The notes beneath the pieces were generated by a model. The model was not told the origin of the DNA. It saw only the letters and a list, made by a program, of their open reading frames with translations, and made no database searches. A program made the position numbers and the translations under genes. A stretch of 35,748 bases of DNA from Verrucomicrobium sp. (lineage in GTDB: Bacteria > Verrucomicrobiota > Verrucomicrobiia > Methylacidiphilales > UBA1321). Shown here piece after piece: positions 26,592 through 33,356 of this stretch (positions are counted from its first letter, which is position 1; the number at the start of each line of letters is the position of its first letter). The DNA lies in NCBI GenBank assembly GCA_017849585.1, contig JAFIGT010000005.1, positions 1-35,748 on the forward strand. The letters are read 5' to 3'.

Positions 26592-26616
26592 AGAGGGCTG
26601 CATTGTAGGCAGCTCT
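26592..26616. terminator. Hairpin between convergent genes
   Basis: AGAG-GG-CTGC (26592-26601) can pair with GCAGCTCT (26609-26616), leaving a two-base bulge. The hairpin touches the stop codon of the minus-strand cNMP-binding gene and follows the plus-strand gene end by 11 bp. A short TACAATTT follows on the plus strand. It is a weak candidate for a bidirectional terminator. Confidence 0.3.
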
Positions 26617-27242
26617 TACAATTTGATCTCGGTGGAGATCTTGACCTTCTGCTCCCCGGCGAGGCTCTTCTTGATCATCTCGAAGAAGCTGGTCTGCGAG
26701 GCACTGGGGGCGGTGATGACGGCCTCCATGCGGGGCGGGACGAAGGCGGGGGTGATGTTGTTCTCGCTGATGCGGTGGTTGGCCTCGTGCAGGCGGGTGC
26801 TGAGGATCTGGGCCATGCCCATGAGGAAAACACCGCCGCCGCCGGGGTGATCGGAAATGTAACTGCGTAGCGAATCGCCATCCATGGACCAGAGCACGGA
26901 GTCGGCAATGGTGCGCACGGTGGCGCTGGCGGGGCCGGGGACCAACACGGCGAGTTCGCCAATGCATTCGCCGGGCTCGACCTTGGCGAGGCTCATTTCC
27001 TGTCCGCTGACGGAGGCGAAGATTTGCAGTTCGCCCTCGACGAGAATGTAGAGGCGGTCCTGTTCGCGGCCTTCTTCAATCACCTCGGTGCCATCCTTGT
27101 AGCTGGCGTAGACACCATACGAGGCGAGATTGGCGAGGGACTCGGTGCTGAGTCCAGCCAGGATGCCCACAGCAGGCAGGCTGGGAGGCAATTGTTCCCA
27201 ACCGGAATCAGAGGAGGGGTCGCCGGGGATGAGATTGCTCAT
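26616..27242 (-). CDS. Cyclic-nucleotide-binding domain protein 2
   Basis: A 208-residue protein with a central cNMP-binding (Crp-like) beta-roll (about residues 28-150). Visible elements are GTEVIEEGREQDRLYILVEGEL, the phosphate-binding cassette analogue GECIGELAVLVPGPASATVRT and a C-helix (LMGMAQILSTRLHEAN). There is no helix-turn-helix, kinase or channel, so it is probably a ligand-sensing regulator of a partner protein. The C-terminus (155-208) is a 50-residue tail with PPRMEAVITAPS. The arginine of the canonical cassette (PxARxAT) is replaced by PASATV, so binding of cAMP or cGMP is doubtful. The ATG overlaps the stop codon of the upstream paralogue as ATGA. Confidence 0.85.
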   Translation of the reverse strand: MSNLIPGDPSSDSGWEQLPPSLPAVGILAGLSTESLANLASYGVYASYKDGTEVIEEGREQDRLYILVEGELQIFASVSGQEMSLAKVEPGECIGELAVLVPGPASATVRTIADSVLWSMDGDSLRSYISDHPGGGGVFLMGMAQILSTRLHEANHRISENNITPAFVPPRMEAVITAPSASQTSFFEMIKKSLAGEQKVKISTEIKL

Positions 27243-27736
27243 GGGGTGGGGGCCGCGGCCACGCGACGGGAGCGGACGCTGAGGAAGCCGGGTACGATTT
27301 GGCTGGTTTTGATGAGTTTGTTGGCCTGCTGCAAGCGCTGGCTGAGAATGGTGTTGATGCCGAGGATGAGACCGCAGCCGGCGTGAGGGTATTCCTGGAG
27401 GAAGGTCTGAAGGTGGTCAACGTCGATATACCAGAGCTGACTGTCCTCCATGGCGCGGACGGTGGCGCTGGCGGTGCCGGGTTCGAAAATGGCGACTTCG
27501 CCAAAGCAGTCGCCTTTGCCGAGGGTGGCGAGGCGGACTTCGCGTTGGTTGACGTGGGTGATGACTTCGAGCGCGCCGGAAAGGGTGATGTAGAGGTTGA
27601 TCTGGCGCTCGTCCTCACGAATGATGATGGTGCCCTTGGTGAAAAGGTGGCAGACGCCGTACCCGCTCAGCACGGAGAGCGCTTCTTCGTCAAGATAAAC
27701 GAGAGGCCCCATTCGGGGCAGGGCTATTTCGGCCAT
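27239..27736 (-). CDS. Cyclic-nucleotide-binding domain protein 1
   Basis: A 165-residue paralogue of the next gene. Elements include GTIIIREDERQINLYITLSG, the cassette GDCFGEVAIFEPGTASATVRA and a C-helix (LGINTILSQRLQQANKL). It also lacks an output domain and has Ser-Ala in the cassette where Crp has an Arg. The length is shorter than a DNA-binding Crp (about 210 residues) because the HTH is absent. The ATG at 27736 precedes the domain, and the stop overlaps the start of the second cNMP gene. The pair probably arose by duplication and may act as a heterodimer or as two sensors for one target. Confidence 0.85.
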   Translation of the reverse strand: MAEIALPRMGPLVYLDEEALSVLSGYGVCHLFTKGTIIIREDERQINLYITLSGALEVITHVNQREVRLATLGKGDCFGEVAIFEPGTASATVRAMEDSQLWYIDVDHLQTFLQEYPHAGCGLILGINTILSQRLQQANKLIKTSQIVPGFLSVRSRRVAAAPTP

Positions 27737-29613: not shown

Positions 29614-31062
29614 CTACGAACGCGGCAGCGCCCGGTAGACGGGGCGCTGGGGCAGGGTGTTTTGCAGGAGCGGATTCTGCAACTGGGCGAGGTCGATTAC
29701 CTCCACCACGGGCCGCGATGGGTTGATGAGGCTGAGGAAAACAAACTGTTCCTTGGCCCATTTCGTAAGGCGTAGCAGCAAGCCGACGCCCAAGCTGTCG
29801 ATAAAAGTGACCTGGCTGAGATCGAGTTGGAAGCGCATGTCGCGCGGGGCGGAGCTGAGCTTTTTCACATCGTCCATCACTTGCAACGTGTCGCGCCAGA
29901 ATTTTTCCCAGTTCACGGAATGGACGCGGCCCCGCCAATAGATCCGCGCGCCGTTCGGCTCGGGCCCACGCTCGAAGCGGATGTGTCCGTTGCGGGCCAT
30001 GAGGTCGCCCTTGATGCGGGCCGCTTCCGCGTCGCTGGCGGTGTCAAACATCTGGTCGAGCTGGACGAGACGGAGGGCGTCGGTGACCACTTTGGTGGGT
30101 CGGATGAGGACAAGTTGCCGGTCGAAATGCTCGGCGGTTTTCAGGAGAGTGATGAGCAGCCCGAGCGCGGAGCTGTCGATAAATTGCACGCGGGAGAGAT
30201 CGAGCAGCAGGGAGGCGCCGTTGGTCATGAGTGCGACGAGCGGCTTGCCCAGAGTCTCTACCTGCGCGGCATCGAAGCGACTTTCGACGGCCATCTCGGT
30301 CCAGCGGGAATTCAGGTTGTCGCGCACTGGCGCGACAGCCACACGCGGTTCGAGCCGGGGATGCACGGCCAGCCGCTGGGTCTGGTCGCTGATGCGCTTG
30401 AGCAACTGGCTTTTGGAGTGGCGGAGCCGCTCCTGGGTGCGACCGGGAATGATCGCCGCCGGGGCCATCTCCACACTGGGTCCAAGGCCGAGGATGAGCG
30501 GGACCGCCAGATAGCGGTGGTAGCTGCTGATCCATTTTTCCTGAAGCGGGGTGGGCAGGAAAAGCGCCAGCATATCAGGCCGTGTGGCGATGATGGCTTC
30601 GAGAAATGCGGGGCCTTGATTGCCGACCCAAATGTTGGTCGGAACAGCGAGGATATCCGGAGCCCGTGCCCGGGGAAATTGCTGCGACCACCATTCGGCC
30701 ATGCGCTCAATGGAATCATTCTGCGGGATGAGCAGGGTGGAGCGAAAACCGGGGGGACCTTCCGCAACCGCTGCCGCCAGCAGCACCGGTGCCGAGTAGA
30801 GGGTGAGCGGCGAATGAAAGAGTTGGCGACAGGCGGAGACGAGTAGCCAGCTTTCGGGAATGAGTACATCCGCGGCAATGAGGGCGTGGCGTAGTTCGCG
30901 ATCATTCTCGATGGCTTGCAGGTGCTCCTGGCTCACGAGATTGAGCCAAAGTCCGGTGCGTTCCGCGAAGGCGCTGCGCGCCAGTTGACGCAGTTTGTCC
31001 TCACTAATCTCGTGGAAGGGCAACCCAAGCAGGGTCATGGGAGAGCCGATTGGAACGGGCAT
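29614..31062 (-). CDS. WecG/TagA-like glycosyltransferase domain fused to two STAS domains
   Basis: A 482-residue fusion. Residues 1-205 match the WecG/TagA/CpsF fold: LVSQEHLQAIENDRELRHAL (about 42-61), an ADVLIPES stretch, and PTPLQEKWISSYHRYLAVPL with LGLGPSVEM, which mirrors the family GxPKQEKWI and GVG motifs. The usual PDG motif, which holds the catalytic Asp, reads PES here (about 69-71). Residues about 250-360 form a STAS domain with LLLDLSRVQFIDSSALG (candidate phosphoserine at 297/298), and 370-482 form a second with FQLDLSQVTFIDSLGVG (Ser423). The likely role is regulatory: a degenerate transferase domain under control of phosphorylation switches. The ATG at 31062 is chosen; a second in-frame ATG lies at 31038. 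I know of no common precedent. Confidence 0.8.
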   Translation of the reverse strand: MPVPIGSPMTLLGLPFHEISEDKLRQLARSAFAERTGLWLNLVSQEHLQAIENDRELRHALIAADVLIPESWLLVSACRQLFHSPLTLYSAPVLLAAAVAEGPPGFRSTLLIPQNDSIERMAEWWSQQFPRARAPDILAVPTNIWVGNQGPAFLEAIIATRPDMLALFLPTPLQEKWISSYHRYLAVPLILGLGPSVEMAPAAIIPGRTQERLRHSKSQLLKRISDQTQRLAVHPRLEPRVAVAPVRDNLNSRWTEMAVESRFDAAQVETLGKPLVALMTNGASLLLDLSRVQFIDSSALGLLITLLKTAEHFDRQLVLIRPTKVVTDALRLVQLDQMFDTASDAEAARIKGDLMARNGHIRFERGPEPNGARIYWRGRVHSVNWEKFWRDTLQVMDDVKKLSSAPRDMRFQLDLSQVTFIDSLGVGLLLRLTKWAKEQFVFLSLINPSRPVVEVIDLAQLQNPLLQNTLPQRPVYRALPRS

Positions 31063-31224
31063 ATGATGACGCGGTTGGTGGGAACCGGCTGACACCGGCG
31101 GCGGTGAACCGAATTCGTCCTGCGCCCTCTATCGGCTAGGATGAAAAAATCTTTAGATTCTTTTTGTAGAAACAGGAAAGGTGGGAGGCAGTTTTTGCCC
31201 AGCGCTCTCCCCCCAAAATGACTT

Positions 31225-31252
31225 GAGCTCACCGGCCCCCGCCGGTGAGCTC
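31225..31252 (-). terminator. Strong hairpin downstream of the chemotaxis receptor gene
   Basis: GAGCTCACCGGC (31225-31236) and GCCGGTGAGCTC (31241-31252) form a perfect 12-bp stem with a 4-nt loop, 46 bp past the stop codon of the minus-strand mcp gene. On the minus strand AAGTCATTTT follows, so the U-tract is weak and delayed. Placement and stem strength favour a terminator that separates mcp from the STAS-fusion gene. Confidence 0.65.
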
Positions 31253-31298: not shown

Positions 31299-33356
31299 TT
31301 ACATGTCCTTGAAGTCGTCTTCCATCGGGATGGCCGATTTGCCGCGCACAGCTATCGATTCATCGGGAATCGGTTCGCTGTGGCGTGAGCCTCCTGTCGA
31401 AGCGGCGGCATTCCGGGGAGCCGTCACGACCTTCTCGCGCTTGGCGGCATGAGCGGGTGCGGTCGCCGTGGGCATGGAGGTTTTGGCGCTGGTCACTTTG
31501 GTTTGAATCAATTTGCGCACAGGCATCAGTTGGCTGGCCAGGCTCGATTCCCCGCTGCCTCCGACCATGAGCTGGAGTTCCTTGACGGCGCTACGCAGTT
31601 CTTCCGACTGGGCGTTCAATTCCTCCGCGGCAGCGGCGGTTTCTTCCGCACTGGCGGCGTTGGTCTGGGTGACCTTGTCCATCTGCGAGACGGCGACATT
31701 GACCTGGGTGATGCCGGTGCTCTGCTCTTTCGATGCGGTGGCAATCTCAGCAACTAGTTCGTCCACCTTGTGGGCCTTTTCGACGACTTCCTTGAGTTTC
31801 TCGGAAACCAACGCGCTGATTTCCACTCCCTGTCCACTCTTGGCAATGGCGTCCTGAATCTTGTCAGCCGTCTCCTTCGCCGCGATGGCGCTGCGATGAG
31901 CCAGATTGCGCACTTCGTCGGCGACGACGGCGAAGCCCATGCCAGCTTCCCCGGCACGTGCGGCCTCGACGGCGGCATTGAGCGCGAGGATGTTTGTCTG
32001 GAAGGCGATCTCGTCGATGGTCTTGATGATTTTGGAAATATCGTCGCTGGATTTCTTGATGGCCTCCATGGCGGTGTTCATCTTGACCATTTCTCCAGTG
32101 CCCGAGTCGGCCGCAGTGCGAGCCTCCGAGGCGAGCGTCTTGGCATTGCTGGCATTCTCGGCGTTATGCTCAGTCATGCTGGCCATTTCCTCGAGTGAGG
32201 AGCTAGTCTCTTCGAGCGAGGCCGCCTGTTCGCTGGCGCCTTCGGCGAGCGATTGGCTGGCTGCGGACACTTGTCCTGCCGCCGACGAAGTTTGCTCCGA
32301 TCCGGCGGAGAGTCGCTCAATGAGGCGGTGCACCGGCACGGTAATGCTGCGGGTGATCACCACGGCCAGCGTAACGCCCACGCCGATCGCAATGAGCAGG
32401 CCGACAATCATAATGCCCTTGGCAATTGCCAGCGATGTGGCCGAAAGGTTGGCGGTGCCAACGGTCGCCTGGAGCGCGGCATCATAGATTTTGTCCGTGC
32501 CTTCGTGCATCGCCTTGGCAAAGATGTTACGTTCCGCCAGCACCTTGTCGTTATTTTCCATGAGCTCACTCAGTCTCACCATGGCCAATTTATAGTTGGC
32601 GACACTTTCCTTCACCTTGTTGAGCTGTTCGATATTCGCCGACTGATGCACCATGGGGGTGATCTCCGCCAACATTTTATCGATCTCATCAAAGCGGGGC
32701 AGTGCCTTGGTAATCAGGGCCGAGTCACGATCGATCAAACCACGAGCAGCCGCCAGTCGCGCCTGGTTGCCTTCATTGCGAATCTTGGCAGACAAGGCTA
32801 CTTTGAGGGAGCGTTCCCGCAGGGCTTCCAGGGTGGCCTTGTTGGCCATTTCTTCCTGCAACTTGGTGAATTGGCTGTCGAAAAAGCCATTGATCTGCGT
32901 CGCAAATTGAGTGCCGTTGGCGTAGACCTGCAGGATGTTGGACTTGATTTCGCGCTGGATTTTAACGGTCTCTTCAAACTTCGAGCTGTATTTTTCGAGA
33001 GCCTCGGCGTAGGGGCCCACTTCCGCTTTCAGCTTGGGCAGATGGGGTGACACATCCGCCAGTTTCTTGGCCGCTTCCACATTGCTTTTGGCGGAGTGAA
33101 GATTCTTGGTCGCGATGTCATACTGATCCTCATCGCCAGTCAATCCGTAGGTGCGTACGGCGAGTTGAGCCGTGGCCACTTTTGTCTGAAGGTCGCTGAC
33201 GATTTCGAGCTCCGCAGCGTATTCCTTGGCCAGGATTTGGGCCGAACTCGATGACGTCTGCATCACGACCACGGCGATGCCTCCCAGAATCAGCGAGATG
33301 AGAATCAGCGCCCCAAATCCGTAGGCGATTTTTTTTCCAAGTGTGAGGTTTTTCAT
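31299..33356 (-). CDS. Methyl-accepting chemotaxis protein
   Basis: A 685-residue receptor. A first membrane helix (about 10-32, FGALILISLILGGIAVVVM) is followed by a periplasmic helical sensor domain of about 270 residues (35-305), a second helix (about 312-335, GIMIVGLLIAIGVGVTLAVV), and a short HAMP-like stretch RSITVPVHRLIERLSAG. The signalling domain then starts with QVSAASQSLAEGASEQAASLEETSSS and its hairpin tip is IDEIAFQTNILALNAAVEAARAGEAG, matching MCP tips that bind CheA and CheW. Methylation-site helices flank the tip. The tail (610-685) is Ala/Thr/Lys-rich and lacks a CheR-binding pentapeptide. The ATG is served by GGAG 5 nt upstream. No che genes lie in the window. Confidence 0.93.
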   Translation of the reverse strand: MKNLTLGKKIAYGFGALILISLILGGIAVVVMQTSSSSAQILAKEYAAELEIVSDLQTKVATAQLAVRTYGLTGDEDQYDIATKNLHSAKSNVEAAKKLADVSPHLPKLKAEVGPYAEALEKYSSKFEETVKIQREIKSNILQVYANGTQFATQINGFFDSQFTKLQEEMANKATLEALRERSLKVALSAKIRNEGNQARLAAARGLIDRDSALITKALPRFDEIDKMLAEITPMVHQSANIEQLNKVKESVANYKLAMVRLSELMENNDKVLAERNIFAKAMHEGTDKIYDAALQATVGTANLSATSLAIAKGIMIVGLLIAIGVGVTLAVVITRSITVPVHRLIERLSAGSEQTSSAAGQVSAASQSLAEGASEQAASLEETSSSLEEMASMTEHNAENASNAKTLASEARTAADSGTGEMVKMNTAMEAIKKSSDDISKIIKTIDEIAFQTNILALNAAVEAARAGEAGMGFAVVADEVRNLAHRSAIAAKETADKIQDAIAKSGQGVEISALVSEKLKEVVEKAHKVDELVAEIATASKEQSTGITQVNVAVSQMDKVTQTNAASAEETAAAAEELNAQSEELRSAVKELQLMVGGSGESSLASQLMPVRKLIQTKVTSAKTSMPTATAPAHAAKREKVVTAPRNAAASTGGSRHSEPIPDESIAVRGKSAIPMEDDFKDM

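Follow-up and report, generated by a model that had tools for sequence, protein, structure and literature searches.

A putative pseudo-glycosyltransferase of family 26 joined to two conserved STAS domains in a genus of Verrucomicrobiota

What might a protein do that joins a WecG/TagA-like glycosyltransferase half, altered at its catalytic motif, to two STAS (anti-anti-sigma) domains with their phosphorylation serines in place? The question is raised by a gene in the window, by which we mean the whole analyzed stretch of 35,748 nucleotides from Verrucomicrobium sp. (contig JAFIGT010000005.1). Translation of the open reading frame places the gene at 29614..31062 on the minus strand, exactly the span of the original prediction, with the start ATG at 31062, the stop codon at 29614-29616 and a product of 482 amino acids. 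All of the motifs on which that prediction was built are present in the product (PES at residues 69-71, PTPLQE at 170, GLGPSVE at 192, DSSALG at 296 and DSLGVG at 422), and a search of the genome (G000) returned this protein as its only GT26 match. From the reading frame, its translation, Pfam and dN/dS, we annotate it as a putative pseudo-GT26-STAS-STAS gene.

The proposed anatomy of a GT26 domain followed by two STAS domains was recovered by Pfam, by an AlphaFold2 model and by structural matching. Pfam detects Glyco_tran_WecG at residues 64-198 (E 1.1e-9, above its cut-off) and STAS in two stretches (E 1.1e-19). In the model, which was built with 26 family members as input and has a mean pLDDT of 80, residues 6-203 (30454..31047, minus strand) adopt the GT26 (TagA/WecG, GT-E) fold according to VIA-align, Foldseek and Pfam. 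Against the TagA/TarA structures 5wfg, 7mpk, 5wb4 and 7n41, VIA-align gives Z of 20.9-21.7 with rmsd of 2.5-2.7 over 191-194 residues, and Foldseek gives E 8e-8. By its modeled fold, therefore, the protein belongs to glycosyltransferase family 26. The family alignment shows a degenerate C-terminal appendage at residues 204-235 (30358..30453, minus strand), after which STAS domain 1 occupies residues 239-357 (29992..30348, minus strand; Pfam and structural matches) and STAS domain 2 residues 359-472 (29647..29988, minus strand; second Pfam stretch and structural match). The best structural matches of the first (residues ~239-359) are anti-sigma-factor antagonists, with Z up to 16.7, and that of the second is MlaB chain 7ch8_L, with Z of 13.4. 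In SpoIIAA/RsbV proteins, HATPase_c_2 kinases phosphorylate the serine after the conserved aspartate, and SpoIIE-type phosphatases remove the phosphate again. When the protein is aligned with its family and with SpoIIAA-type STAS domains, Ser297 (D-S297-S-A-L-G; 30172..30174, minus strand) falls at this phospho-acceptor position in STAS1, and alignment likewise puts Ser423 (D-S423-L-G-V-G; 29794..29796, minus strand) there in STAS2. Both domains thus keep the serine after the conserved aspartate (D296-S297, D422-S423), as had been predicted.

In order to read the catalytic half against a characterized enzyme, TagA numbering was taken from a profile alignment to T. italicus TagA, and the window protein was placed by the family alignment. 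In TagA, Asp65 is the general base and Thr37 orients the sugar, Asn39, Arg83, Gln167 and Glu168 are conserved pocket residues, Arg221 in the C-terminal appendage stabilizes the leaving group, and the enzyme is reported to be switched on by membrane contact via that appendage (PMC6493773). The family and TagA alignments show that PES (residues 69-71; 30850..30858, minus strand) replaces P-D-G in our protein, the motif of active family members being P/C/A-D-G, so that Glu70 stands at the position of Asp65, where all 32 homologues have Asp; the suspected change of the catalytic motif was correct. The replacements extend to Thr37 (Leu42), Asn39 (Ser44), Gly66 (Ser71) and Lys166 (Leu173), Arg83 is deleted and the loop glycines are lost, and the equivalents of Asp65, Thr37 and Asn39 are kept in all 32 homologues outside the genus. 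No other column of the alignment supplied an intact catalytic Asp: the Asp column at residue 46 and the TagA Asp191 column both read Glu here (the latter, Asp191 to Glu198, being a conservative change). What is kept comprises the GxG motif, Gln174 and Glu175 (TagA Gln167 and Glu168), and Arg223 and Arg230 (TagA Arg214 and Arg221 by our own numbering of the appendage). Around these two arginines the appendage has changed from RAP to RTQ and from EW to QL and has lost its RY motif; the segment is poorly modeled, and the model is partly disordered in this region, with pLDDT under 50 at residues 200-213.

The extent of this erosion can be given as a count. Among 57 GT26 columns that are at least 90% conserved across the 32 homologues, 34 are changed in the window protein and in its sister-species orthologue, versus 0-7 of the same columns in any other family member, while all 7 conserved STAS columns are intact in the window protein. 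Therefore, the exception is confined to the GT26 part in one genus. A sequencing or frame artefact at PES was ruled out, because the orthologue from the sister species (Verrucomicrobia bacterium Tous-C9LFEB, NEUU01000002.1), which is 94% identical, has the same residues; neither chance nor error explains the change. Loss of the active site in the window protein is well supported by these alignments, and since many of the pocket residues are gone, catalytic activity has likely been lost with them. Weak activity or ligand binding may persist, given the conservative Asp-to-Glu change and the retention of Gln174/Glu175 and Arg223/Arg230.

By comparing the gene with the sister orthologue, we found a dN/dS of 0.074 over 482 codons, similar to the neighboring genes (0.048-0.154). 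By domain, the GT26 part has 0.075, STAS1 0.037 and STAS2 0.065. The value for the GT26 part indicates that the eroded domain is maintained. A decaying relic without function would fit the disappearance of the catalytic site and of the former-cluster genes that we tested (see below), but the dN/dS over the full 482 codons, together with an open frame and a conserved upstream block in two species, makes such decay highly implausible, and it was rejected on dN/dS. The genus evidence rests on two genomes (G000 and G002); no orthologue was found in the third congeneric genome (G001), whose assembly is 79% complete. Purifying selection on the GT26 part would also suit a strongly diverged but still active enzyme, in which Glu70 acts as the base on a new donor or acceptor under STAS regulation. 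An acidic residue at the base position and the retained Gln174/Glu175 and Arg223/Arg230 are in keeping with this idea; yet Thr37 and Asn39 are replaced, Arg83 is deleted, Lys166 has become Leu, the loop glycines are lost and the appendage is degenerate, whereas the homologues keep all of these features, and we consider a surviving enzyme unlikely.

The conserved upstream block, seen on alignment of both upstream regions, lies at 31141..31200 (minus strand) and is a candidate promoter or 5' region; a promoter scan of the upstream region found no sigma-70 consensus. Farther upstream, a terminator-like hairpin (31225..31252, minus strand; 12-pair stem, 9 G-C, T-rich tail) follows a methyl-accepting chemotaxis protein (MCP) gene. 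The hairpin scan expects 1.8 sites by chance, which makes the hairpin weak evidence, and on this footing the window gene is probably transcribed alone. The MCP gene itself (31299-33356, minus strand) is one of many in the genus, with 12 strong matches in G002, and as a neighbor it could possibly hint at a role in motility or surface behavior. Elsewhere in the window, two genes with a 4-base overlap (26616-27736, minus strand) encode proteins of 165 and 208 amino acids, each with one cyclic-nucleotide-binding domain and no further Pfam domain, and both are under purifying selection.

A five-row profile run against 388 genomes of the phylum, after which the best proteins were read and three more were added from close relatives, placed the protein in a family. 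Of the 32 homologues outside the genus, 21 carry two STAS domains and 8 carry one; 1 is ended by its contig inside STAS1, and 2 are without STAS in the aligned stretch. Because the reading covered the best-scoring loci only, these counts are lower bounds, so that at least 21 full-length GT26-STAS-STAS proteins occur outside the genus across the phylum. Catalytic motifs are kept in every homologue examined, the sole exceptions being the window protein and its sister orthologue. The search ruled out a unique layout. The supposed novelty of the arrangement accordingly stands only in part: neither the GT26-STAS-STAS form nor its pseudoenzyme variant was found described in the open-access literature, while the architecture is recurrent at phylum level and normally catalytically intact. 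Among plasmid records, 291 GT26 matches were obtained, none of which spanned 80% of any fusion protein. Several stand-alone GT26 proteins of 334-366 amino acids from other families (L162, L163, L164 and L170) carry short C-terminal extensions, of which that of L164 resembles a shortened STAS (VILDCRSIYFCSNALRVQ...) without Pfam detection; loss or reduction of STAS domains may have happened repeatedly among the GT26 proteins of the phylum.

For the placement of the window protein within this family we relied on a tree of the STAS part, because in the full-length tree the protein joins the fusions through a branch of length 6.4, which is very long. The STAS-only tree groups it and the sister orthologue with the intact fusions G016, G008, G194 and G297 (100/99), of the same order and class. 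When the GT26 part is taken alone, its BLAST scores to fused and to stand-alone GT26 proteins overlap, and therefore the ancestry argument rests on the STAS part and the domain order. Ancestry from a GT26-STAS-STAS fusion is well supported on these grounds, and we infer that this ancestral fusion was active.

In the relatives, the intact fused genes belong to exopolysaccharide clusters that hold glycosyltransferase, flippase, Wzy-like ligase and sugar transferase genes, and several of these clusters contain single-STAS and HATPase_c_2/SpoIIE genes too. In G006 and G008, members of the same family, the fused gene is near family 4 glycosyltransferases, a flippase and a Wzy-type ligase; a second contig of G006 begins with an apparent remainder of the fused protein, followed by single-STAS, sugar transferase and HATPase_c_2-SpoIIE genes, and we read the two contigs as probably one locus broken at an assembly gap. 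G297 and G016 hold a comparable gene set on one contig, and in G194 single-STAS and HATPase-GAF-SpoIIE genes follow directly after the fused gene. G362 has a second form, a response regulator-SpoIIE-HATPase protein, in the vicinity of its fused gene, and similar proteins occur in G275 and G329. G008 also carries a second, divergent stand-alone GT26 gene (L029:12816-13589, minus strand; E 7.9e-22) about 10 kb from its intact fused gene. SpoIIE genes in polysaccharide clusters were likewise noted at L126:14688-16454, L131:13234-14892 and L135:13158-14903 (all minus strand), and the encoded proteins have an N-terminal receiver and a HATPase_c_2-like end (Pfam domain calls for L126 only); they recall SypE, but the domain order differs.

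A SpoIIE gene lies within 10 kb of the fused gene in 5 of 20 genomes, representing five families, against 0.38 expected from genome-wide density (Poisson P 5e-5). Compared with other GT26 loci the excess is not significant (6/23 versus 3/20). Four of the 20 control loci carry C-terminal extensions that are maybe short STAS remnants, with no Pfam call. As SpoIIE also occurs in 3 of the 20 control loci, we do not claim an association specific to the fusion; the safe statement is that a partner-switch module is frequent in clusters of this kind within the phylum.

In the window genome little of such a cluster was recovered. Neither the cluster flippase nor the hexapeptide-repeat protein is matched by any protein of G000 or G002. 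The short sugar transferase that stands beside HATPase-SpoIIE in G006, G008 and G016 is absent from both, one longer paralogue being the only match, and the cluster single-STAS gene is absent from both as well, its best G000 match being STAS1 of the window protein. Four tested polysaccharide-cluster genes are thus missing, and the fused gene and an unlinked HATPase-GAF-SpoIIE gene are kept. The predicted link between polysaccharide precursors and partner switching is a better match to the relatives than to the window genome, which lacks the four tested components on its polysaccharide side. The absence of any tested partner cluster gene speaks against a surviving enzyme as well. It bears also on the proposal of a sugar-binding sensor, according to which the GT26 domain would bind but not turn over a UDP-sugar or a lipid-linked sugar and relay this state to the STAS domains: no tested cluster gene is left to make or use a dedicated precursor, and the pocket described in TagA is largely changed, with Thr37, Asn39, Arg83 and the loop glycines among the lost residues. 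The fold is kept, and the donor-side Gln174/Glu175, the two appendage arginines including Arg230 and the conservative Asp191-to-Glu198 change could still serve binding; this part of the original prediction is weakly supported, and we regard a sensor as quite unlikely.

The RsbW-like kinases and PP2C phosphatases that a partner switch would use are present in G000, which holds 8 HATPase_c_2 and 7 SpoIIE matches. Among them is an intact HATPase-GAF-SpoIIE protein, encoded on contig 36 next to tolQ/exbD-like genes (named from sequence only) and 41% identical to that of G008; it keeps the N-box, the G-box and the SpoIIE metal motifs and has a dN/dS of 0.047. Kinase/phosphatase and STAS genes are not adjacent in the window genome, and lie within 10 kb of each other in several relatives. 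Full-length HATPase-GAF-SpoIIE proteins occur in 7 of 61 genomes sampled from the order, namely, in 5 of 5 with the fusion and 2 of 56 without it (Fisher 3.5e-6, an optimistic value because the genomes are related). Two full-length orthologues (L157 in G003 and L158 in G023) come from genomes with no detected GT26-STAS-STAS gene, and their surroundings show no obvious polysaccharide cluster. From this profile we infer a pairing of the window protein with the HATPase-GAF-SpoIIE kinase. Against it stand the location of the candidate on a separate contig and the other HATPase_c_2 and STAS genes of G000. A binding platform could instead answer to another RsbW-like kinase, for example, in the contig 20 set, where a STAS protein adjoins two HATPase_c_2 proteins. 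MlaB-like STAS domains work without phosphorylation, and the structural likeness of STAS2 to MlaB would allow such a mode here. The phylogenetic profile and the cluster linkage in relatives favor HATPase-GAF-SpoIIE, and a different cognate, or none, seems improbable.

According to these analyses, the explanation we favor, with somewhat better than even confidence, is that the window protein is a pseudo-glycosyltransferase that descends from an exopolysaccharide enzyme under partner-switch control and now acts as a phosphorylation-controlled binding platform. The ancestor would have been an enzyme of GT26-STAS-STAS layout that belonged to an exopolysaccharide cluster and whose sugar transfer was probably controlled through phosphorylation of its STAS domains by the co-encoded HATPase_c_2/SpoIIE protein. 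In the window genus the tested cluster genes would then have gone and the GT26 site eroded, leaving the STAS pair and the kinase-phosphatase intact and under selection. The contig 36 HATPase-GAF-SpoIIE protein would phosphorylate and dephosphorylate Ser297 and/or Ser423, the phosphorylation state would switch the binding partner, and the GT26 fold would be a docking surface, not an enzyme; since catalysis is probably gone, phosphorylation would alter binding partners only. In the intact family, STAS phosphorylation may gate either the reaction of the GT26 domain or the docking of that domain at the membrane, and the appendage, adjoining the STAS linker, would be a natural control point given the membrane activation of TagA (PMC6493773). 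It is conceivable, and we put it forward tentatively, that GT26-STAS-STAS proteins are direct effectors of a Syp-like switch that gates sugar transfer without transcription, the dead member in the window genus being a case where the switch outlived its pathway. The data suggest that members of the phylum wire a phosphorylation switch directly onto a polysaccharide enzyme and that the window lineage kept only the switch. If so, the recurrent fusion, often with a SypE-like kinase/phosphatase, would mean that in one bacterial group the target of a STAS domain can be the glycosyltransferase itself, and a pseudoenzyme still selected after loss of the cluster genes would mean that a signaling role of the fold is separable from catalysis.

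Compared with TagA, TarA and WecG, the window protein shares over residues 6-203 the same GT-E fold of GT26, the GxG motif, the Gln-Glu pair and the two appendage arginines, but differs in the replaced catalytic Asp, Thr37 and Asn39, the deleted Arg83, the degenerate appendage and the two added STAS domains. The GT26-STAS(-STAS) fusions of the phylum, its nearest relatives in the STAS-only tree, have the same domain order and STAS motifs; unlike the window protein, they keep the catalytic motifs, and the closest ones lie within polysaccharide clusters. With SpoIIAA/RsbV, the anti-anti-sigma factors that work with SpoIIAB/RsbW and SpoIIE/RsbU, it shares the STAS fold and the D-S phospho-acceptor, and HATPase_c_2 and SpoIIE recur in the candidate partner; however, that partner fuses kinase and phosphatase with a GAF domain, and no sigma factor was identified as the output. 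Both STAS proteins in polysaccharide loci and one STAS-glycosyltransferase fusion are already known. The latter, all4160 of Anabaena, is a glycosyltransferase mentioned in a review as having an N-terminal STAS domain (PMC8256260), at the end opposite to that in our protein. The former are represented by SypA and SypE of Vibrio fischeri, a STAS output protein and a dual serine kinase/phosphatase in a polysaccharide locus, where SypE sets the phosphorylation state of SypA Ser56 and SypA, which acts after SypE and whose target is unknown, controls polysaccharide-dependent biofilm below transcription (PMC4517449, PMC10120452). The relatives of the window protein likewise have a STAS protein and a kinase/phosphatase in a polysaccharide locus, whereas SypA is a free single STAS domain, the STAS domains of the window family are fused to a glycosyltransferase, and the window genome has kept its fusion without the tested cluster genes.
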